The position numbers and the translations under genes are program-made. Positions 33,453 to 42,667 of a DNA stretch of 64,000 nucleotides are shown in pieces (the first letter of the stretch is position 1; every line of letters starts with the position of its first letter). This stretch comes from Bordetella genomosp. 4. Lineage in GTDB: Bacteria > Pseudomonadota > Gammaproteobacteria > Burkholderiales > Burkholderiaceae_B. A model generated the notes under the pieces. It was not told the DNA's origin, ran no database searches, and saw nothing but the letters and a program-made list of their open reading frames with translations. The stretch spans positions 434,001-498,000 of the forward strand of contig NZ_NEVQ01000013.1 of assembly GCF_002261185.1 (NCBI RefSeq), read 5' to 3'.

Positions 33453-34277
33453 TTAGGCGTGGCTGCCCCCGATCAACGCGGAATGCTCCATCCAATCGCG
33501 CTGCGGGTAAAAATTAAACAGGAATGCCTGCTCCGCCAATGTATCAATCAGCGGGCGCGCAATCGGCACGCGTACCGCCGGGCAGCCGAAACTACGTCCC
33601 AGCCGCCCGTGCGCCCGGATCATCTCGGCGCTCACATACGGCGCGCCATGAATGACGATGGCGCGGTCAAAGGCCAGATCGTTGAACCCCGGCTCCAATC
33701 CGTGCAAACGCAGGGAATAGCCGTTCTTTCCCGTATAGATCTCGCCCGCCTGATAAGCCCCCAGACTGGACATATGGCTTTCCGGGCGATTCGAGAACTC
33801 GCGCGCGAAATTGTCGCCGGTGTTGCGGCCGTGGGCGACCCATTCCTCGAACAGGACCTCATGAGTATTCAGGTCGAAAACCCACAAACGCTTGGCAGTG
33901 GAAGGCAAGCTGAAGTCCACCAGCGCCAGCACGCGTGGATCTCCACCGGGCAGGGCCTTGCCGGCCCGGGCACGTTCCAGTGCCTCGGTCGCGAGTTGCA
34001 CGGCCAGCATCGAAGCGTTCGGCGCTTTGGCAGCCAGCGACAACGCCAGCTCGTTGGCGGCAGTGCGGGCCTGAGCCGCATTCGACGAGGCACTACTGCA
34101 GAATTCACTACCGGTCTGCACGCCGGCACCGCCTTGCGCCTCACAGGGCAAAGTGGAAAGCGCCGAGGCCTGCTTGAACGCGGCATCAGAACGCGCAAAC
34201 GCAGAGGGAAGCACCCCGCCCAAGGACAGGGCGGCCAAGGTACGCAAGACACGACGACGGGAAGGATGATCAATCAT
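33453..34277 (-). CDS. L,D-transpeptidase catalytic domain protein (YkuD_2 type)
   Basis: A 274-residue exported protein of the murein L,D-transpeptidase YkuD_2 family, expected to act on peptidoglycan cross-links or lipoprotein attachment in the periplasm. Signal peptide residues 1-29 (SRRRVLRTLAALSLGGVLPSAFA) with a twin-arginine-like run. Catalytic region: VAHGRNTGDNF (about 148-158), LHGL (His192), VIHGAPY (His210) and SFGCPAVR with Cys232. The ATG at 34277 begins the signal peptide; the frame opens 22 codons upstream. A second, unrelated-family L,D-transpeptidase gene follows upstream on the same strand. Confidence 0.85.
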   Translation of the reverse strand: MIDHPSRRRVLRTLAALSLGGVLPSAFARSDAAFKQASALSTLPCEAQGGAGVQTGSEFCSSASSNAAQARTAANELALSLAAKAPNASMLAVQLATEALERARAGKALPGGDPRVLALVDFSLPSTAKRLWVFDLNTHEVLFEEWVAHGRNTGDNFAREFSNRPESHMSSLGAYQAGEIYTGKNGYSLRLHGLEPGFNDLAFDRAIVIHGAPYVSAEMIRAHGRLGRSFGCPAVRVPIARPLIDTLAEQAFLFNFYPQRDWMEHSALIGGSHA

Positions 34278-34474
34278 GGGCAACTCTAACTTTCTCAAAG
34301 AAACAGCGGAAACCCGCGTCTCTTTGCCCCTAGCGGGGATCACAGCTCCTTGCCTCCTGCCGGAGAACGGCCAGACACGGCTGGCCGCAAGGAAGGTCTA
34401 TCTAAGAAATGCCGGACCACAACCGGCATTGCGTCCCCAATTTGAGACGGGCCAAGTCTGGCCTTAAGGGACAT

Positions 34475-35500
34475 TCAATCAACGTCAGATTCTAGTACAC
34501 GTTCCGTCGGACCTGCTCCAGCAACGTCGGGAGCAGGCCTCACGGCAGGCAAGCTGGTGATCAGCATGGTGGTGCCAGGCGTGAGCAAACGGTACACACG
34601 GCGGATGAATTCAGGCTGTGCCTTGATGCTGTTTTCCAGGTTGGTCAAGGACGGCGGCGTGCCGAACAGGGGATAACTGGCCCATTGGTGCCGCAGTTGC
34701 GTCGGGTCAAACGGGCTAGGCTCGTTGACGGTCCCCGTCCCCATCACCAATAACAGCGCACCGTCAAAATGTGCGCCTGAATCGGCATGCAACCATGAGG
34801 AACCGATTGCGATCCCGTTGCGCAGGACGTAAAAGCGCTGCTCGCTCAAGCTGAGGACAATGCTCAACGGTCCCGACGGCGAAATACTCTCGTCCCAGAA
34901 ATCTCCCTTGCCGCGCTGGGCAATCTGATCAACGGGAGATGCCGCGGCCCCAGGCGCTACAGGCGCCAGCAGCGCGGGAAACGCAATCCGGGAGGGGTCT
35001 ACGCGAGCATCGGCCACCACCACCGTATCGCCGTTCTTCGTCTCGGCAAACAACCGTTGTGCAAATGCATTGGGTAACCGCACGCAGCCATGGGAAGCCG
35101 GATGCCCCGGGATCGCGCCACCGTGCAGCGCGATCCCGCTCCAGGTGAGCCGCTGCATGTACGGCATAGGCGCATTGTTATAGATATTGGACCGGTGATC
35201 ACGGTCCTTTTGCAGGATGGTGAATACGCCGGTGGGCGTCTCATGCCCCGGCTTGCCGGAACTGATGGTCGATACGCCTATCGCAACGCCATTGCGGTAG
35301 ACATACACGCGCTGCTCGTCCAGGCTGACCAGGACGACCAATGGACCGGCAGGCGCTGCCTCGGGATGCCAAATGAAATCCCCCGGGCTCATTTTTTTCA
35401 CGTCCAGCGCCAGCGCCTCGGCGCTGACAACAAGAGCGGTTGAAAAGCACGCGCCCAAAAAAGCGCGACGCGAATACACGGCGTTCGATGTCAAAGGCAT
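34475..35500 (-). CDS. L,D-transpeptidase with a second, inactive YkuD-like copy
   Basis: A 341-residue exported protein with Tat-like signal YSRRAFLGA (residues 9-17). Residues about 40-185 are a canonical YkuD domain with active site HGGAIPGHPASHGCVR (His126, Cys139, Arg141), which makes direct 3-3 peptidoglycan cross-links or anchors lipoproteins. Residues about 205-330 repeat the opening of that domain (SIVLSLSEQRFYVLRNGIAIG against LVVLVSLDEQRVYVYRNGVAIG) but have no HGxxSHGC box. The second copy is therefore probably structural or substrate-binding. The start is the ATG at 35500; a TTG ten codons earlier is possible. Confidence 0.88.
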   Translation of the reverse strand: MPLTSNAVYSRRAFLGACFSTALVVSAEALALDVKKMSPGDFIWHPEAAPAGPLVVLVSLDEQRVYVYRNGVAIGVSTISSGKPGHETPTGVFTILQKDRDHRSNIYNNAPMPYMQRLTWSGIALHGGAIPGHPASHGCVRLPNAFAQRLFAETKNGDTVVVADARVDPSRIAFPALLAPVAPGAAASPVDQIAQRGKGDFWDESISPSGPLSIVLSLSEQRFYVLRNGIAIGSSWLHADSGAHFDGALLLVMGTGTVNEPSPFDPTQLRHQWASYPLFGTPPSLTNLENSIKAQPEFIRRVYRLLTPGTTMLITSLPAVRPAPDVAGAGPTERVLESDVD

Positions 35501-35594
35501 AGGGACTGAGAAATCGTTAAGAACACACAACTCTAACTGTAGCCCGTTTATTCAGCGCAGGTGAGCGTTATCCCGCTATCGGGAAAACCATGAT

Positions 35595-35610
35595 TGGAAC
35601 TTTAGTTTCA
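35595..35610. promoter_or_regulatory. RpiR operator candidate, left half
   Basis: TGGAACT-TT-AGTTTCA, a 16-bp near-perfect palindrome, lies 42 bases before the RpiR ATG. It is repeated with one base difference per arm at 35625-35640, with centres exactly 30 bp apart. Confidence 0.72.
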
Positions 35611-35624
35611 CACAAATATAGTTA

Positions 35625-35640
35625 TGAAACTAAAGTTTCA
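35625..35640. promoter_or_regulatory. RpiR operator candidate, right half
   Basis: TGAAACT-AA-AGTTTCA is a perfect 16-bp palindrome ending 11 bases before the RpiR start. With the copy at 35595-35610 it also forms a larger inverted repeat (13-bp arms 35598-35610 and 35625-35637). Two sites three helical turns apart suit a tetrameric or paired dimeric regulator. Confidence 0.78.
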
Positions 35641-35651
35641 TAGACATCACC

Positions 35652-36500
35652 ATGACCCAATCCCTGCACGACCGAATCGTCAGCCTGCACGACCAACTGA
35701 CAGACAGCGAACGCCGACTCGCCGAAGTCATGCTGGAGCACCTGAGCCAACTCGCCGCCTACACCGGCGCCGAACTGGCGCAAAAGGCTGGGGTGTCCAA
35801 AGCCACGGCGGGCCGGTTCTTTCGCCGTCTAGGTTACGACAATTTCAATGAGATACGTGCCGTGGTGCGTGAACAGGCGGATCTGGGTTCGCCGCTGCAA
35901 CTGCTCGCGGGCGGCAATGCCGAGCCTCCCAGCGACGATGCGCTGGCTCAGCATCTGGCAAGCGATCTCCAGAACCTGGCTCACACCTTCGAACGCATCG
36001 AGCGCAAAACGATAGACGAGGCGATTCATTTACTGGGCAGCACGCGCCGCGTTTTTGTAGCGGGGTTCCGCAATGGCCGGGTATTGGCCCAGTATGCCTG
36101 GGCCCTGCTCACCCAATTGCGCGACGGCGTCGTACTGGTGCCCGGCGCGGGGCTGAATCTGGCAGAGGACCTCGCTGATCTCGGTCCGGACGACCTGCTG
36201 CTCGTGATGGACTTTCGCCGTCGCGTGACACTGCTGCGCCCCATGGTGGAACACGCCAATCGCGCCGGCGCGAAAGTCATCACGCTCACCGATCCCACAG
36301 CCACGGAACTGCCTGCGCGCTCTGACGTCGTCCTGCGCTGCGCGACACAAGGCGCACAGATTTTCGACTCGTATGTCGCGCCCATCAGCCTGATCAATCA
36401 TTTGGGATCCAGCCTGGCGGCGACGCTGGGAGCCACGGCGCGTAAACGGCTGGAAACCATCGAATCACTGCATAACCATTATGGCGATCTCCATCGCTAA
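35652..36500 (+). CDS. RpiR/MurR-family transcriptional regulator
   Basis: A 282-residue regulator with an N-terminal HTH_6 domain (AQKAGVSKATAGRFFRRLGYDNFNEIRAVV, about residues 38-70) and a C-terminal SIS domain (about 125-265, VFVAGFRNGRVLAQYAWALLTQL) that normally binds a phosphosugar or similar effector. It is the first gene of the operon that follows and overlaps the next gene's first possible start. Two matching palindromes sit in its promoter, pointing to autoregulation and control of the downstream catabolic genes. An SIS regulator over an amino-acid operon is less usual than over sugar operons. Confidence 0.92.
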   Translation: MTQSLHDRIVSLHDQLTDSERRLAEVMLEHLSQLAAYTGAELAQKAGVSKATAGRFFRRLGYDNFNEIRAVVREQADLGSPLQLLAGGNAEPPSDDALAQHLASDLQNLAHTFERIERKTIDEAIHLLGSTRRVFVAGFRNGRVLAQYAWALLTQLRDGVVLVPGAGLNLAEDLADLGPDDLLLVMDFRRRVTLLRPMVEHANRAGAKVITLTDPTATELPARSDVVLRCATQGAQIFDSYVAPISLINHLGSSLAATLGATARKRLETIESLHNHYGDLHR

Positions 36501-37764
36501 TCTTTCTCGGGAGACCGGCTTGAATACCCCTCTTTCTAACGTAAAACTGCAGTACGCATCGAATCCGGCAGTCCAACCTGATGCCCCCTATGGTGCTGAA
36601 CAGCAGTCCGTGCTCGGCGGCGCCGCGTTCGCGCAGGCGGCCACGCAAATCCGGCAATGGCCGGGCTACGCCCCTACCCCGCTGCACGACCTGACGGGCC
36701 TGGCGCAGGCTGCGGGTGTCGCGCAGATTCTGTATAAGGACGAAGCCGACCGGTTCGGATTGGGCAGCTTCAAAGCCCTCGGGGGTGCTTATGCCGTCAG
36801 CCGCCTGCTGTTGAAAGAGATCGCATCTCGTACGGGCGAGCAGAATGCGACGGCAGAAGACCTGCTCTCGGGCCGCTACGCCGCCATCACGCGTGACATT
36901 ACCGTCACCTGCGCGACCGATGGCAATCACGGCCGGTCGGTCGCCTGGGGCGCGCAGCGATTCGGCTGCCAATGCGTCATCTACATCCACGCCACCGTCA
37001 GCGAGGGGCGCAAGGAAGCGATCGAGAAATACGGTGCACAGGTCGTGCGCACCGACGGCAACTATGACGACTCAGTGCGCCAGGCAGCCCGCGACGCCGA
37101 GCGCCTGGGCCGTTTCGTCGTATCGGACACCTCGTACGACGGGTACATGGACGTACCCAAAGACGTGATGCAGGGCTATGCGGTCATGGCCGACGAGGCC
37201 CTGGATCAAATCGGCACAGACCCGTTGCCCACCCACGTATTCCTGCAAGGCGGCGTCGGCGGCCTCGCAGCGGCCGTATGCGCGCATTTCTGGGAAACAT
37301 TAGGCGCCAAGCGGCCGAAGTTCATTGTGGTCGAGCCCGACAAAGCCGCCTGCCTGTATGAAAGCGCACGCGCCGGCAAACCCGTCGCCGTACACGGTGA
37401 CCTGGATACCATCATGGCCGGCCTGGCTTGCGGCGAAGTCTCATTGCTCGCCTGGAAAGTCCTGCACCCAGGCGCACGGGCGTTTCTCTGCATCGATGAC
37501 GAGTCTGCGTTGAATACGGTGCGCTTGCTGGCCGAAGGCCGTTATGGCGATACGCCTATCGTCGCCGGTGAATCGGCAGTGGCCGGCTTGGCGGGCATGC
37601 TGGGCGCAATGAACGATCCGCAAGCTCGCGCCGCTCTCGGCCTGGATGCCGAGAGCCGTATTCTCGTGTTCGGGAGCGAAGGTGCGACGGATCCTGAGCT
37701 GTACCAGCGCATCGTCGGTAAATCGGCGCAGGCCGTGCGCGAATCCAGCAGGACGCCGGCATGA
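36481..37764 (+). CDS. dpaL: Diaminopropionate ammonia-lyase
   Basis: PLP enzyme converting 2,3-diaminopropionate (both enantiomers in E. coli) to pyruvate and two ammonia. The 427-residue product matches E. coli YgeX over most of its length: RFGLGSFKALGGAYA holds the PLP lysine (Lys98), CATDGNHGRSVAWGAQ matches the phosphate/cofactor loop, and HGDLDTIMAGLACGEVS is the family block. The ATG at 36481 overlaps the RpiR gene by 20 bases and has no ribosome-binding site; a TTG at 36520 preceded by GGGAGA is a good alternative start. Next gene starts in an ATGA overlap. Confidence 0.93.
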   Translation: MAISIANLSRETGLNTPLSNVKLQYASNPAVQPDAPYGAEQQSVLGGAAFAQAATQIRQWPGYAPTPLHDLTGLAQAAGVAQILYKDEADRFGLGSFKALGGAYAVSRLLLKEIASRTGEQNATAEDLLSGRYAAITRDITVTCATDGNHGRSVAWGAQRFGCQCVIYIHATVSEGRKEAIEKYGAQVVRTDGNYDDSVRQAARDAERLGRFVVSDTSYDGYMDVPKDVMQGYAVMADEALDQIGTDPLPTHVFLQGGVGGLAAAVCAHFWETLGAKRPKFIVVEPDKAACLYESARAGKPVAVHGDLDTIMAGLACGEVSLLAWKVLHPGARAFLCIDDESALNTVRLLAEGRYGDTPIVAGESAVAGLAGMLGAMNDPQARAALGLDAESRILVFGSEGATDPELYQRIVGKSAQAVRESSRTPA

Positions 37765-39041
37765 GCTCCCCCACATCACTGCAATCAGCGGCGGGGCCCG
37801 CGTCAGAGCACAAGCCGTTGCGCATCAATACGCAACGTCTGCTGGGCCGCATCGCAGAATTGGGAAAGATCGGCGAAATCGACGGCGGCGGCGTATGCCG
37901 TTTGGCCCTGACCGACGAAGACCGCCACGGACGAGACAGGGTCTGCAGCTGGATGCGCGAGCTAGGCCTGGACGTGACGATCGATGCCATCGGCAACGTT
38001 GTCGGCATACGCCGGGGCAGCGAAGATCTGCCTCCCGTCATGACGGGATCGCACATCGACACCGTGCGCACCGGTGGCCGCTATGACGGCAATCTCGGCG
38101 TGCTCGCCGGCCTGGAGGTCGTGGCGACACTGAATGACGCGGGCGTCACGACACGGCGGCCGCTGGCCGTGGCCTTTTTCACCAACGAAGAAGGCGCGCG
38201 CTTTGCACCGGACATGATGGGCAGCCTGGTCTTTCAGGGCGGTTTGCCGCTGGAAACGGCCTTGAACACGACAGGAATCGACGGCACGACGGTGCGTGAA
38301 AATTTGCAGCGTATCGGCTATGCGGGCTCCTATCCCGTGGCCAGCAGAGCCGTCCATGCCTTTGTGGAACTGCACGTAGAACAAGGCCCCGTGCTGGAAC
38401 ACGAGGGCGTCACGATTGGCGCCGTCACCGGCGTACAAGGCATCCATTGGACCGAATTCACCATCGAAGGCACGTCCAATCACGCCGGCACGACGCCCAT
38501 GCGGCTACGCCATGATGCAGGCGTGGTCGCCGCCCGGATCGCCTGCTTTGCGCGCGATCTGGCGGTCGAACTGGGCGCCGGCCAATTGGCCACTGTCGGG
38601 CATATTCAGATTGCGCCGAACCTGGTGAACGTCATTCCCAACCGCGCCGTCTTCACGCTGGATTTGCGCAACACCGATGGCGATGTCCTGGCCAACGCCG
38701 TGCAACGTGTTTTCGCGTTTGCGCAACAGGCCGCCGACGCCGAGGGCGTACAGCTGCGTCATCGCTCACTGGCGGACTTCCAGCCGGTGAGCTTTGATCG
38801 TCGCATCATCGAACGTGTGGAGGCCATCGCGCACCAGCATGGACACCGCGTACAGCGCATGCCCAGCGGCGCGGGCCACGACGCACAGATGCTGGCGCGC
38901 ATGTGCCCGGCTGGCATGATTTTCGTCCCCAGCGTCAAAGGGCTGTCGCACAACGTCGCCGAATTCACCCACGACCACGACATCGAAGCCGGCGCCAACG
39001 TCCTGTTGACGTTGCTGACCGAACTTGCAGAACAACACTAG
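37761..39041 (+). CDS. M20 family amidohydrolase (N-carbamoyl-L-amino-acid hydrolase/allantoate amidohydrolase type)
   Basis: A 426-residue zinc-dependent amidase. Metal and catalytic residues are visible in TGSHIDTVRTGGRYDG (His98, Asp109), TNEEGARF (about residue 141) and LHVEQGPVLE (His about 207); GAGHDAQMLA and HNVAEFTHDHDI (near residues 374 and 394) complete the family pattern. Such enzymes split N-carbamoyl, allantoate or ureidoglycine amide bonds releasing ammonia and CO2. The start overlaps the dpaL stop (ATGA), so it is coupled to it. Substrate by context may be a ureido or carbamoyl derivative. Confidence 0.9.
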   Translation: MSSPTSLQSAAGPASEHKPLRINTQRLLGRIAELGKIGEIDGGGVCRLALTDEDRHGRDRVCSWMRELGLDVTIDAIGNVVGIRRGSEDLPPVMTGSHIDTVRTGGRYDGNLGVLAGLEVVATLNDAGVTTRRPLAVAFFTNEEGARFAPDMMGSLVFQGGLPLETALNTTGIDGTTVRENLQRIGYAGSYPVASRAVHAFVELHVEQGPVLEHEGVTIGAVTGVQGIHWTEFTIEGTSNHAGTTPMRLRHDAGVVAARIACFARDLAVELGAGQLATVGHIQIAPNLVNVIPNRAVFTLDLRNTDGDVLANAVQRVFAFAQQAADAEGVQLRHRSLADFQPVSFDRRIIERVEAIAHQHGHRVQRMPSGAGHDAQMLARMCPAGMIFVPSVKGLSHNVAEFTHDHDIEAGANVLLTLLTELAEQH

Positions 39042-39050
39042 GAGACCACT

Positions 39051-40004
39051 TTGTCACGATTCATCAATGTCGCTGCCGCTCAACTCGGCCCCATACAACG
39101 CAGCGATACACGCAGTGAAATCATCGAGCGTCTGCTGGCCCACCTGCGGCAAGCCCACGCCATGGGCTGCCAGCTGGTGGTGTTTCCCGAGTTGGCATTG
39201 ACCACGTTTTTCCCGCGCTGGTACATGGAAGACCCGGAGGAAGTCGACGCCTTCTATGAAAAAGAAATGCCCGGCCCTACGACCCGCGTTCTGTTCGATA
39301 CTGCGGCCAAACTGGGCATCGGTTTCTACCTGGGCTACGCGGAACTGACGGTGGAGAACGGCCGTGCGCACCGCTACAACACGTCCATCCTGGTCGGACA
39401 AGACGGCAAAATCATCGGCAAGTATCGCAAAGTACATCTGCCCGGCCATGCCGAACACGAGCCATGGCGTGCCTTTCAGCATCTCGAAAAACACTACTTT
39501 GAACCCGGCCAGTCGTTCGATGTGTGGCGAGCGTTCGGCGGTGTCATGGGCATGGCGCTATGCAACGACCGGCGCTGGTCCGAAACCTATCGCGTGATGG
39601 GCCTGCAGGGCGTCGAGATGATCATGCTCGGCTACAACACACCCGTGCATAACCCGCCCGCTCCCGAACATGACGACCTGTCGATGTTTCACAATCAGCT
39701 CGTCATGCAGGCAGGGGCGTATCAAAACGGCACATGGGTGGTGGGTGTCGCCAAGGCGGGGGAGGAAGAAGGCTGCGAAATGATCGGCGGCACCTGCATC
39801 ATCGCGCCCTCCGGTGAAATCGTCGCGGCCTGCTCCACCAAAGGCGATGAGCTCGCGATTGCCCGTTGCGATCTGGACCTGTGCCATTCCTACAAGAGCA
39901 CGACCTTCAACTTTGAGCGTCATCGGCGTCCCGAGGCCTATGGATTGATCACTTCTCGTCGCGGTGCCATTGCCCCAGCCGACGTGGAGATGTCCCCAGC
40001 TTAA
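39051..40004 (+). CDS. N-carbamoyl-D-amino-acid hydrolase (nitrilase family)
   Basis: A 317-residue nitrilase-superfamily enzyme that resembles Agrobacterium D-carbamoylase along its length (VFPELALTTFFPRW, GPTTRVLFDTAAKLGIGFYLGYAEL, YNTPVHNPPAPEHD). The Glu-Lys-Cys triad is visible as Glu47, Lys127 and Cys171 (LCNDRRW). The family releases D-amino acid, CO2 and ammonia from N-carbamoyl-D-amino acids. A TTG start at 39051 is supported by TAGGAG 7 bases upstream. It follows the M20 amidase by 9 bases, so D- and L-type carbamoylase activities may be made together. Confidence 0.93.
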   Translation: MSRFINVAAAQLGPIQRSDTRSEIIERLLAHLRQAHAMGCQLVVFPELALTTFFPRWYMEDPEEVDAFYEKEMPGPTTRVLFDTAAKLGIGFYLGYAELTVENGRAHRYNTSILVGQDGKIIGKYRKVHLPGHAEHEPWRAFQHLEKHYFEPGQSFDVWRAFGGVMGMALCNDRRWSETYRVMGLQGVEMIMLGYNTPVHNPPAPEHDDLSMFHNQLVMQAGAYQNGTWVVGVAKAGEEEGCEMIGGTCIIAPSGEIVAACSTKGDELAIARCDLDLCHSYKSTTFNFERHRRPEAYGLITSRRGAIAPADVEMSPA

Positions 40005-40035
40005 CTCCCCGCTTCCCTCTTCCAGCTAGGTCATA

Positions 40036-40059
40036 GGGTGCCGGCGTTTTCCGGCACCC
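40036..40059 (+). terminator. Hairpin in the operon between carbamoylase and MFS transporter genes
   Basis: GGGTGCCGG and CCGGCACCC form a 9-bp perfect stem with loop CGTTTT. No T-run follows, so it is more likely an mRNA stability or partial-attenuation element than a full terminator. Confidence 0.55.
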
Positions 40060-40100
40060 AAGGGGAGCGTTTGCCTTAAATTTCTTCGAGGTGCATGCTA

Positions 40101-41429
40101 ATGAACACAAGTTTGGCTCCGGCTCACGCCGCAGATGCAGTATCTTCGACACAATCCGACAGCAAGGACGACGCTCTCTACCGCAAGGTCGCGTTCCGTC
40201 TGCTTCCCTTTTTGATGCTGTGCTATATCGCGGCCTTCCTGGATCGAGTCAATGTCGGCTTTGCAAAGCTGCAAATGCTCGACGAACTCGGTTTCAGCGA
40301 AGTCGTCTATGGGCTGGGCGCGGGCATTTTCTTCATCGGCTATTTTCTCTTTGAAGTCCCCAGCAATCTGCTCATGCATCGCATCGGGGCAAAGAAAACC
40401 CTGGCGCGCATCATGATCCTGTGGGGCATCATCTCTGGCGCGATGGCCCTGACGCAAACCCCGACGCAGTTCTACATCCTGCGATTCCTCCTGGGCGCCG
40501 CCGAAGCCGGGTTTTATCCCGCCATCATCCTCTATTTGACCTATTGGTTTCCGTCGCGCCGCAGAGGACAGATCGTCGCGATTTTCATGACGGCGGTACC
40601 GTTTGCCGGCATCATCGGCGGCCCGTTGTCGGGATACATCATGGAGGCCTTTCACGATGTGCATAGCCTGTCCGGCTGGCAATGGATGTTCCTGATCGAA
40701 GCCATCCCGTCCGTCGTACTGGGCATCTCTGTTATTTATTATCTGGACGATCGCATCGACGATGCGAAATGGCTCAGCGCCGCGGACAAGGCCCGCATGA
40801 ATGCCAATCTGGACGTGGACCGATCCGCCAAAGTGGAACACGTCTCGCTGTGGACGCTGCTCAAGGACAAGCGCGTCATCCATATGGCGCTGATCTGCTA
40901 TTGCACGGTATCCAGCCTGTCCGGCCTGGCCTTCTGGATTCCGTCCGTCATCAAGTCTACCGGCGTTGACTCGTTGCTGTCGGTCGGGCTGTTGACTGCG
41001 GTGCCCAATATCTGCGCGGTGATTTCGATGGTGCTGGTGTGCCGCCATTCAGACCTGAGCCGCGAGCGCCGTTGGCATATGATCGTGCCCTTTCTCATCG
41101 GCGGCACGGGCCTCGTGCTGAGCACCGTGTACAGCCATAACCCGCCGTTCGCCGTGCTGATGCTGTCCGTGGCGGCCGCGGGATGCATGGTGTGCTCACC
41201 GCTGTTCTGGAGCTTGCCCACCGCGTTTCTAAAGGGCCGCAGCGCCGCTGCCGGCATTGCAGGCATCAACTCGTTCGCCGGATTGGCGGCCTTTGTCAGC
41301 CCATATGTCATCGGCTGGATCAAGAACGCGACGGGGTCCACCGATTACGGCATGTATTTTCTGTCCGCGTTCACGGTACTGGGCGCCATTCTGGTCTATC
41401 TCGTCCCCAAAGACCTGGTCAATCGTTGA
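40101..41429 (+). CDS. MFS transporter, anion:cation symporter (ACS) family
   Basis: A 442-residue inner-membrane symporter with about 12 hydrophobic segments. The opening LYRKVAFRLLPFLMLCYIAAFLDRVNVGFAKLQM is the ACS-family hallmark (FLDRVNVG in the first loop). Family members take up carboxylates, glucarate-type acids or amino-acid derivatives by proton symport. ATG at 40101 is chosen over 40095 because of GAGGTG 7 bases upstream. It lies inside the dpaL/carbamoylase operon, so it is the probable uptake system for that pathway. Confidence 0.93.
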   Translation: MNTSLAPAHAADAVSSTQSDSKDDALYRKVAFRLLPFLMLCYIAAFLDRVNVGFAKLQMLDELGFSEVVYGLGAGIFFIGYFLFEVPSNLLMHRIGAKKTLARIMILWGIISGAMALTQTPTQFYILRFLLGAAEAGFYPAIILYLTYWFPSRRRGQIVAIFMTAVPFAGIIGGPLSGYIMEAFHDVHSLSGWQWMFLIEAIPSVVLGISVIYYLDDRIDDAKWLSAADKARMNANLDVDRSAKVEHVSLWTLLKDKRVIHMALICYCTVSSLSGLAFWIPSVIKSTGVDSLLSVGLLTAVPNICAVISMVLVCRHSDLSRERRWHMIVPFLIGGTGLVLSTVYSHNPPFAVLMLSVAAAGCMVCSPLFWSLPTAFLKGRSAAAGIAGINSFAGLAAFVSPYVIGWIKNATGSTDYGMYFLSAFTVLGAILVYLVPKDLVNR

Positions 41430-41521
41430 TTGCCGCGCGCCGGTGCGCGCCACGGCCGGCAACATCCCTCAACGGTCGGCGCGCCAAGCCGGCCTCTCTG
41501 ATTTGCAGTGGAGTGAATTAC

Positions 41522-42667
41522 ATGACTAGTGATGTCATCCAGTTGACCCAGGACATGGTGCGCATACCCAGCCTTTCAGGCCAGGAAAGCGCGATGGCTG
41601 ACCTGATGAAGCAACGCATGCATGAATTTGGTTTTACCTCAGTCACCATGGATCGAAACGGATCTGTTCTGGGCTTGATCGGACCCGACGAAGCGGACGT
41701 CGCGTTGCTGTTCGATGGCCACATGGATGTCGTGCCCGTATCCGGCGACTGGCGATTTGATCCTTTCGGTGCGACGATTCACGAAGGCCGGTTGTACGGC
41801 CGCGGCAGCACCGACATGAAAGGCGGTATCGCGGCTGCAATCTGCGGCGTAGCCGCCGCCGCACGCGAAGGCGCGCTCAAACGCCGCGTCGCGGTGTCAG
41901 CCAGCGTACTGGAAGAAGTCATCGAAGGCCATGCCTTGGCTAGCGTATTGGACCGATGCCAGCCTGCCGCGGTGATCATCTGCGAACCCTCCAAACTCGA
42001 TATCAAGATCGCACAGAAAGGCCGGCTGGAGATTCTGTTGACATTCAAAGGCGTGCCTGCACATGCCGCCTCGCCCCACCTGGGCCGCAATCCGCTGCAT
42101 GCCGCGGCCCGCGCGCTGACCGCATTGGCATCGCTGCCGCTGCCCAGCGATCCTGTCGTGGGCGATGCGTTATTGGTGCCCACCGATATGATTTCGTCGC
42201 CCTACCCGTCTATCTCGATGATTCCTTCGTCGACCACCATACGCTTTGATCGTCGCACGCTCAGCGGCGAAACCGAGGAAAACGTGCTGGCCCAGATCGA
42301 CGCCTGCCTTAAGCAGCATGGGCTATCGGATTACGCCTTGACGACAACGCGCGATAGCGTCAGCACGTTTACCGGGGAACGAGCCGAGCCGGCCCGATGG
42401 CTGCCAGCGTGGCAGCAGACGCAGGACCATCCTTTAGTGACCAGCGCCGTCGAGGCTGTCAAACGCAGCGGCCGCGAACCGCGCATCGGCGTCTGGCCAT
42501 TCTGCACCAATGGCTCGGAGTCCGCCGGCAGACGACATATCCCGACCGTGGGACTGGGCCCCGGGCGTGAAGAAGATGCGCACATCATCGACGAGTCGAT
42601 CGCGCTGGATCAACTCGAGGGCGCGCGCGAGATATACAAACAGTTGACGTTGATCGCGGCGGCGTGA
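41522..42667 (+). CDS. M20 family deacylase (ArgE/DapE/YgeY-like)
   Basis: A 381-residue M20 peptidase-fold enzyme with zinc ligands and catalytic residues in LLFDGHMDVVP (His67, Asp69), GRGSTDMKGG (Asp98) and VLEEVIEGH (Glu131-Glu132). It is similar in kind to ArgE and DapE deacylases and to YgeY, which accompanies diaminopropionate lyase in E. coli. It probably removes an N-acyl group from the pathway substrate. A GGAG site lies about 10 bases before the ATG at 41522. Last gene of the operon that starts at RpiR; convergent with a phospholipase-D gene. Confidence 0.9.
   Translation: MTSDVIQLTQDMVRIPSLSGQESAMADLMKQRMHEFGFTSVTMDRNGSVLGLIGPDEADVALLFDGHMDVVPVSGDWRFDPFGATIHEGRLYGRGSTDMKGGIAAAICGVAAAAREGALKRRVAVSASVLEEVIEGHALASVLDRCQPAAVIICEPSKLDIKIAQKGRLEILLTFKGVPAHAASPHLGRNPLHAAARALTALASLPLPSDPVVGDALLVPTDMISSPYPSISMIPSSTTIRFDRRTLSGETEENVLAQIDACLKQHGLSDYALTTTRDSVSTFTGERAEPARWLPAWQQTQDHPLVTSAVEAVKRSGREPRIGVWPFCTNGSESAGRRHIPTVGLGPGREEDAHIIDESIALDQLEGAREIYKQLTLIAAA

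Follow-up and report, generated by a model that had tools for sequence, protein, structure and literature searches.

Which compound is degraded by an operon that places a diaminopropionate (DAP) ammonia-lyase beside two carbamoylase-type hydrolases? Such an operon, rpiR-dpaL-carbA-nitr-mfs-ygeY, lies in a 64,000-nucleotide stretch of DNA from Bordetella genomosp. 4 (contig NZ_NEVQ01000013.1, positions 434,001 to 498,000), which as a whole is called the window below and whose numbering is used throughout. From the gene families and their conservation we infer that the operon is probably an RpiR-regulated hydrolytic catabolic module that would convert ureido derivatives of DAP, most likely 2,3-diureidopropionate (DUPA) and albizziin, to pyruvate. 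A preliminary description of this DNA had proposed an N-carbamoyl or N-acyl DAP as the input. The carbamoyl branch of that proposal, with albizziine as its candidate, is supported by the analysis, and the oxalyl or other acyl branch is not.

The six-gene operon and its proposed pathway

The operon contains the following features.

35652-42667, + strand: operon rpiR-dpaL-carbA-nitr-mfs-ygeY, six open, collinear genes
35652..36500, + strand: rpiR, MurR/RpiR-type regulator (HTH_6 and SIS, both domains over cut-off)
36481..37764, + strand: dpaL, DAP ammonia-lyase (NF006058)
37761..39041, + strand: carbA, M20 hydantoinase/carbamoylase-family amidase (profile scan, structure matches)
39051..40004, + strand: nitr, nitrilase-superfamily homologue of N-carbamoyl-D-amino-acid hydrolase (TTG start, AGGAG upstream)
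40036..40059, no strand: GC-rich inverted repeat of 9 bp between nitr and mfs, with no T run, read by eye
40095..41429, + strand: mfs, MFS transporter, proposed importer (profile scan)
41522..42667, + strand: ygeY, YgeY-family M20 hydrolase, proposed 3-ureido (albizziin) hydrolase (NF009555)

Since the genes are open and collinear and profile scans confirmed their families, the six-gene operon of the preliminary description is real. Its end at 42667 is indeed the ygeY stop, and the start given there, 35595, falls in the operator and promoter region upstream of rpiR. Along the operon the intergenic spacings are -20, -4, +9, +90 and +92 bp, with dpaL-carbA-nitr as a tight core, and the GC content is near that of the flanking DNA. 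For ygeY the ATG at 41522 was used; a longer open reading frame (ORF) from 41183 would overlap mfs.

DpaL scores 540.3 bits against NF006058 (cut-off 276) and is 40% identical to E. coli YgeX. Its residues K98, D147 and D216 align with K77, D120 and D189 of YgeX, which we take to be the catalytic lysine and two aspartates. Conversion of DAP to pyruvate and ammonia is established for the family, and the E. coli DAP ammonia-lyase accepts both D- and L-DAP. Profile searches of the operon's own genome (5.53 Mb, 23 contigs) covered the DpaL, SsnA, D-hydantoinase, TIGR01879 and YgeY families, and this is the one DpaL over cut-off.

CarbA exceeds the cut-offs of TIGR01879 (407 vs 204) and NF006769 (474 vs 452). 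Its best structure matches are of the deacylase or hydantoinase/carbamoylase family, followed by N-carbamoyl-L-amino-acid and N-carbamoyl-beta-alanine hydrolases. The protein is probably an L-alpha- or beta-ureido carbamoylase; because the structure matches span several named activities, sequence cannot fix its regiochemistry. Nitr scores 183 bits against CN_hydrolase (cut-off 23.2), and the solved structures closest to it belong to N-carbamoyl-D-amino-acid hydrolases (8i99, 438 bits, E 2e-130; 1fo6 is also homologous). Residues E47, K127 and C171, presumably the Glu-Lys-Cys triad of nitrilases, and R174 and R175, presumably the Arg pair that follows the Cys in D-carbamoylases, are retained in at least 34 of 35 rows from loci that carry dpaL, carbA and nitr together. 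D-specific decarbamoylation is the putative activity of Nitr. The transporter scores 165 bits against MFS_1 (cut-off 33.4), with the D-galactonate type TIGR00893 as its best NCBIfam subfamily, below cut-off (344 vs 395).

The last enzyme had been called an M20 deacylase; the M20 assignment stands, and YgeY-family hydrolase is the better name. It scores 384.7/385.9 bits against NF009555 (cut-off 321), whereas the runner-up in the same genome reaches 113.7 bits and the cut-off was passed in 1 of 14 control genomes. Identity to E. coli YgeY is 29%. The matches to NF006058, TIGR01879 and N-carbamoyl-D-amino-acid hydrolase structures bear out the earlier claim that DpaL and two carbamoylase-type enzymes share one operon. 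The further idea that carbamoylases free DAP for DpaL is also consistent with the sequences, as a D-carbamoylase and an M20 carbamoylase would fit ureido removal upstream of DpaL.

In the proposed pathway, the MFS protein would import a ureido-DAP compound. Nitr would act on the R (D) form and take off its alpha-ureido group, CarbA would remove an L-alpha- or beta-ureido group, and YgeY would remove the 3-ureido group of albizziin, an activity reported for E. coli YgeY by Li et al. (2025; PMC12507026). DpaL would make pyruvate and ammonia from the freed DAP. RpiR would repress the operon from two operators of the GAAA-N6-TTTC type and be released by a pathway metabolite. The module would operate in the manner of the lower half of the reductive uric acid pathway, with simple hydrolases standing in for the carbamoyltransferase/kinase pair YgeW/YqeA or for the D-aminoacylase-like UacY, and with the upper half of that pathway absent from the module. 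A D-carbamoylase in the operon agrees with the R configuration that Liu et al. proposed, as recounted in the commentary PMC12990295.

Distribution of the dpaL-carbA-nitr triad

DpaL matches at E up to 1e-60 occur in 52 of 200 same-family genomes, that of the operon included, and are absent from all 8 same-genus genomes among those listed; the distribution of dpaL is therefore patchy. Gene neighbourhoods were compared in two samples. The first comprised 40 same-family loci hand-picked from DpaL family-model matches (one genome twice, some loci near contig ends): dpaL, carbA and nitr (the triad) are all present in 13, dpaL and carbA alone in 6, and a YgeY of at least 59% identity in 5. The second comprised the best 80 of 596 confirmed stretches, fetched with a 15-sequence DpaL alignment. 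As 14 of the 15 queries came from three-gene loci, this sample favours triads, and all 80 loci hold dpaL by construction. Within 7 kb of dpaL, both carbA and nitr were found in 34 loci, carbA only in 5, nitr only in 4 and neither in 37. In two Alcaligenes loci that are carbA-only by the 7-kb rule (L085, L086), nitr is found at a distance of about 7.8 kb, which brings the triad total to 36 of 80. The samples overlap in one contig (L043 of the first, L081 of the second). The gene set singled out in the preliminary description thus recurs in other genomes.

The grouping of dpaL, carbA and nitr is not due to chance. Triads span three proteobacterial classes, with genera including Cupriavidus, Achromobacter, Comamonas and Halomonas, and the DpaL, CarbA and Nitr distances correlate (Mantel rho 0.52-0.65, null maxima 0.26-0.32), species kinship still being contained in these values. 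Of the 34 triad loci, 29 have an rpiR homologue no more than 7 kb away, and the full six-gene set of the operon, including mfs at the same place, is present in 5 of the 80 (L078-L082, from Cupriavidus, three Achromobacter and Pandoraea). Importers vary by locus (MFS, TRAP, oligopeptide-type and amino-acid ABC), which suggests an externally supplied substrate.

The rival explanation that survives best is general salvage of N-carbamoyl amino acids or hydantoins, in which DpaL would act on a by-product or on another beta-substituted amino acid. Hydantoin-type carbamoylases are often broad, and D-hydantoinase/D-carbamoylase gene sets are of a known kind. The operon's own genome carries, on contig C9, a D-hydantoinase locus with a nitr paralogue that is 49% identical to the window nitr; a second hydantoinase-like gene (L172) passes no cut-off. 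The operon resembles such sets in that nitr is homologous to D-carbamoylases, but it has no hydantoinase and is coupled to DpaL and YgeY. Salvage also does not account well for the recurrence of the carbamoylases with DpaL across three classes, and the identified neighbour clusters include no further enzyme of amino-acid catabolism that recurs in triads (clusters C8 and C11 lie outside this set). In the CarbA tree, 45 rows from dpaL loci are set apart from 6 unlinked paralogues, though branch support is just 91/78; residues specific to triad CarbA are four weak positions only (L48, A146, E232 and L288). Taken together, we regard general salvage as improbable.

Hydantoins might still feed the proposed ureido-DAP module at some loci. 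The fetched flanks include a HyuA-like gene at 4 of the 80 loci (L128, L133, L145 and L157) and at 1 of the 40 same-family loci (L052). That of L157 passes NF009941 (695 vs 647 bits), the truncated or split ORFs in L145 and L133 fit the same family without reaching its cut-off, and that of L128 has BLAST and Pfam matches only. L133 also carries an Asp/Glu/hydantoin racemase-family gene. For a minority of loci, the sequences agree with ureidomethyl-hydantoin being one of the natural inputs.

Some neighbourhoods deserve separate mention. In L138, L140, L142 and L153 an Amidohydro_3-type gene lies beside the triad (NF006560 below cut-off; L153 by clustering only); C. difficile UacY, of the same Pfam family, is described as acting on DUPA (PMC12507026). 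L140 and L153 come from records titled 'MAG: Bordetella parapertussis', with DpaL 52-54% identical to that of the window, and these labels look doubtful. A dpaL neighbourhood without carbamoylases was seen in L110, L111, L118, L121, L123, L126 and L132 (Vibrio, Photobacterium, Enterovibrio, Thalassospira and Zobellella). Downstream genes there, scanned mainly in L111, encode a protein resembling EutA (219 bits, cut-off 318) and an M20 protein resembling DoeB2 (313 bits, cut-off 550), and some of these loci have a gene similar to M24 peptidases (PepQ scores best, at 105 bits; DoeA_2, 63) or TRAP genes. This neighbourhood may represent an ectoine-utilisation-like route ending in DAP.

Relation to reductive urate degradation

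The comparison with E. coli ygeX, ygeY and hyuA, already drawn in the preliminary description, gains a meaning that it did not have there, since that setting is the urate pathway. According to Li et al. (PMC12507026), the reductive uric acid pathway, a route of gut bacteria that was described recently, ends with the conversion of albizziin to pyruvate by E. coli YgeY and YgeX, and the known lower half in E. coli and C. difficile is HyuA-YgeW/UacY-YgeY-YgeX. Like this lower half, the operon combines a DAP ammonia-lyase with a YgeY-family hydrolase, for ureido removal from DAP and then pyruvate. Unlike it, the operon has a D-carbamoylase and an M20 carbamoylase, RpiR in place of YgeV, and an MFS importer. 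When 11 E. coli urate-cluster proteins were compared with the six window proteins, only YgeX and YgeY matched, with no counterpart of HyuA, YgeW, YqeA, SsnA, YgfK or XdhD.

A closer connection is found in relatives. In two Pleomorphomonas loci (L107 and L109), dpaL, carbA and nitr are followed by adjacent YgfK-like, XDH and SsnA-like genes on one strand, the kinds of upper enzymes that Li et al. describe (PMC12507026). In L109 and L230, about 8 bp separate nitr from ygfK, and XDH and ssnA share a 4-bp overlap. The L109 XDH passes TIGR03311 (882 vs 830 bits) and the L107 XDH is 95% identical to it. The YgfK-like protein of L109 has 677 amino acids, matches YgfK positions 4-405 and contains 4Fe-4S motifs. 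Across 385 genomes of the class of Pleomorphomonas genome G201, YgfK matched in 211 and passed the cut-off in none; among the matches listed, only that of G201 spans 4-405, the others covering roughly 377-938. The triad DpaL is the only DpaL match in G201, and G200 has a second at 284 bits. Neither Pleomorphomonas genome has a YgeY over cut-off (best 96 and 89), and the Pleomorphomonas D-hydantoinase sits on another contig. If the urate pathway is complete in Pleomorphomonas, CarbA and Nitr must therefore clear both ureido groups.

As an observation in its own right, L107, L109 and L230 may represent a variant reductive urate operon in Alphaproteobacteria, with a short YgfK-like protein and a selenium-type XDH. 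An 'XdhD-like' gene of Tropicimonas (L151) was not counted as a urate gene, as it is closest to PaoC. As a marker across the phylum, SsnA was rejected: of 398 genomes, 1 was over cut-off, and other matches reached at most 218 bits.

With these relatives in mind, we tentatively extend the proposal, at a lower level of confidence than the assignment to ureido-DAP itself. The operon could be a stand-alone, RpiR-regulated scavenging module in Proteobacteria for ureidomethyl-hydantoin, DUPA and albizziin leaked by urate-fermenting bacteria, and an all-hydrolytic third solution to the two ureido-cleavage steps; its D-carbamoylase would imply an R (D) alpha-ureido centre, and in Pleomorphomonas it would complete urate reduction, taking over from YgeW and YgeY. 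Supernatants of E. coli cultures are reported to contain ureidomethyl-hydantoin, whereas albizziin exceeded the medium level only with an engineered strain (PMC12507026). Cross-feeding on leaked intermediates of the urate pathway is thus possible.

Several observations weigh against these proposals. Regarding the enzymes, DpaL fails the strict YgeX model TIGR03528 (359.2 vs 532.25 bits), YgeY fails the core model TIGR03526 (226.8 vs 321.5 bits), and three hydrolases for two ureido groups leave the division of labour ambiguous. YgeY appears to be an add-on, being linked in 7 of the 80 loci (at least 58% identity) and over cut-off in none of 8 triad genomes tested, and a HyuA-like gene lies in the retrieved flank of just 3 of the 36 triads. 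Regarding urate, a reductive urate operon in the genome studied here was rejected, as no SsnA is over cut-off (best 36.2 vs 455.5 bits), and 33 of the 36 triad genomes have no SsnA-like protein above 174 bits; the urate link thus rests on relatives. In Pleomorphomonas the YgfK-like (387-399 bits) and SsnA-like (237-253 bits) proteins are best matches below cut-off, and the two species represent one evolutionary case. Vibrio hangzhouensis has a canonical cluster (identities: XdhD 75%, YgfK 64%, SsnA 69%, YgeY 82%, YgeX 69%, YgeW 83%, HyuA 63%) and also a separate triad on another contig, with TRAP genes and rpiR. Since this organism holds both, cluster and triad are not simple equivalents. The module mostly stands without urate reduction.

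The scarcity of SsnA-like proteins in triad genomes also favours an input that is not urate-derived, namely a ureido amino acid or peptide of plant or microbial origin, such as albizziine or fragments of ureido antibiotics. The differing importer types point the same way, and albizziin is known from silk-tree seeds (PMC12990295). However, a D-type carbamoylase suits an R substrate, whereas the plant amino acid is L (PMC12990295), and the Pleomorphomonas gene order would be left unexplained; we consider this source unlikely, and rather more so than general salvage. Finally, it is very improbable that the last M20 enzyme cleaves oxalyl-DAP or another N-acyl DAP, because, although many M20 enzymes are deacylases, YgeY is the best curated fit of this one, none of the six genes shows a sign of oxalyl, oxalate or oxalyl-CoA chemistry, and two carbamoylase-type enzymes would be left without a role.

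Candidate operator, neighbouring genes and implications

Upstream of rpiR, three candidate regulatory features were identified.

35594..35622, + strand: sigma-70-like promoter candidate TTGGAA-17-TATAGT (9/12 matches), overlapped and flanked by O1 and O2
35596..35609, no strand: candidate operator O1, GGAACTTTAGTTTC, one mismatch to GAAA-N6-TTTC
35626..35639, no strand: candidate operator O2, perfect palindrome GAAACTAAAGTTTC, exact GAAA-N6-TTTC

The promoter candidate is weak alone, as the region holds 2 promoter-like matches against 2.7 in shuffles. O1 and O2 are 14-bp palindromes 30 bp apart, a spacing repeated in L078-L081, and O2 is the sole exact GAAA-N6-TTTC in the window. We scanned a 310-bp rpiR promoter region per locus, with estimated rpiR starts, in 33 promoters: 29 triad loci with rpiR, three loci added by hand (L085, L086 and L092) and the window. 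An exact site is present in 25 of the 33 (the window and 24 of the other 32), as compared to a mean of 0.31 and a maximum of 2 regions in 300 dinucleotide shuffles. Elsewhere in the same loci there are 13 such sites in 586 kb, and a site close to dpaL is present in 1 of the other 43 loci. Pairs 28-31 bp apart, one mismatch allowed, occur in 19 of 33 regions, a raw count without shuffle control; the L112 pair falls outside the scanned 310 bp and was scored as a miss. The L107 and L109 promoters also carry the motif, and in L145 an operator-like site lies upstream of transporter genes leading to the HyuA-like ORFs. GAAA-N6-TTTC is thus a candidate for a conserved RpiR operator. A similar arrangement is described for the Caulobacter module of IolR, also of the RpiR family, where GGAA-N6-TTCC palindromes occur in two copies in the iolC promoter (PMC2597717). 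The 4-6-4 palindrome and its two promoter copies are shared, whereas the half-site here is GAAA/TTTC (though O1 begins GGAA) and the pathway differs.

On either side of the operon lie the following genes.

33453-35530, - strand: pair of neighbouring genes of L,D-transpeptidase type (YkuD_2, YkuD), with transcription directed away from the operon
44332-46157, - strand: hipBA-like toxin-antitoxin pair, HipA-type kinase with an upstream helix-turn-helix partner, one gene past the operon end

Each enzyme family and the logic of DUPA conversion to pyruvate are already known; judged from listings, no description of a DpaL-carbamoylase operon was found in the open-licence literature. If the proposal is true, it would provide an enzyme set and, in RpiR with its operator, a candidate biosensor for ureido-DAP compounds. 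Percudani's commentary (PMC12990295) asks which ureido group leaves first and what the configuration of the intermediates is, and the module would allow a direct test of both questions. It would also point to an environmental pool of ureido-diaminopropionates. Many triad-bearing Proteobacteria are aerobic, and the end of the reductive urate pathway would not be confined to anaerobes, with variant enzymes in Cupriavidus, Achromobacter, Comamonas and Halomonas.

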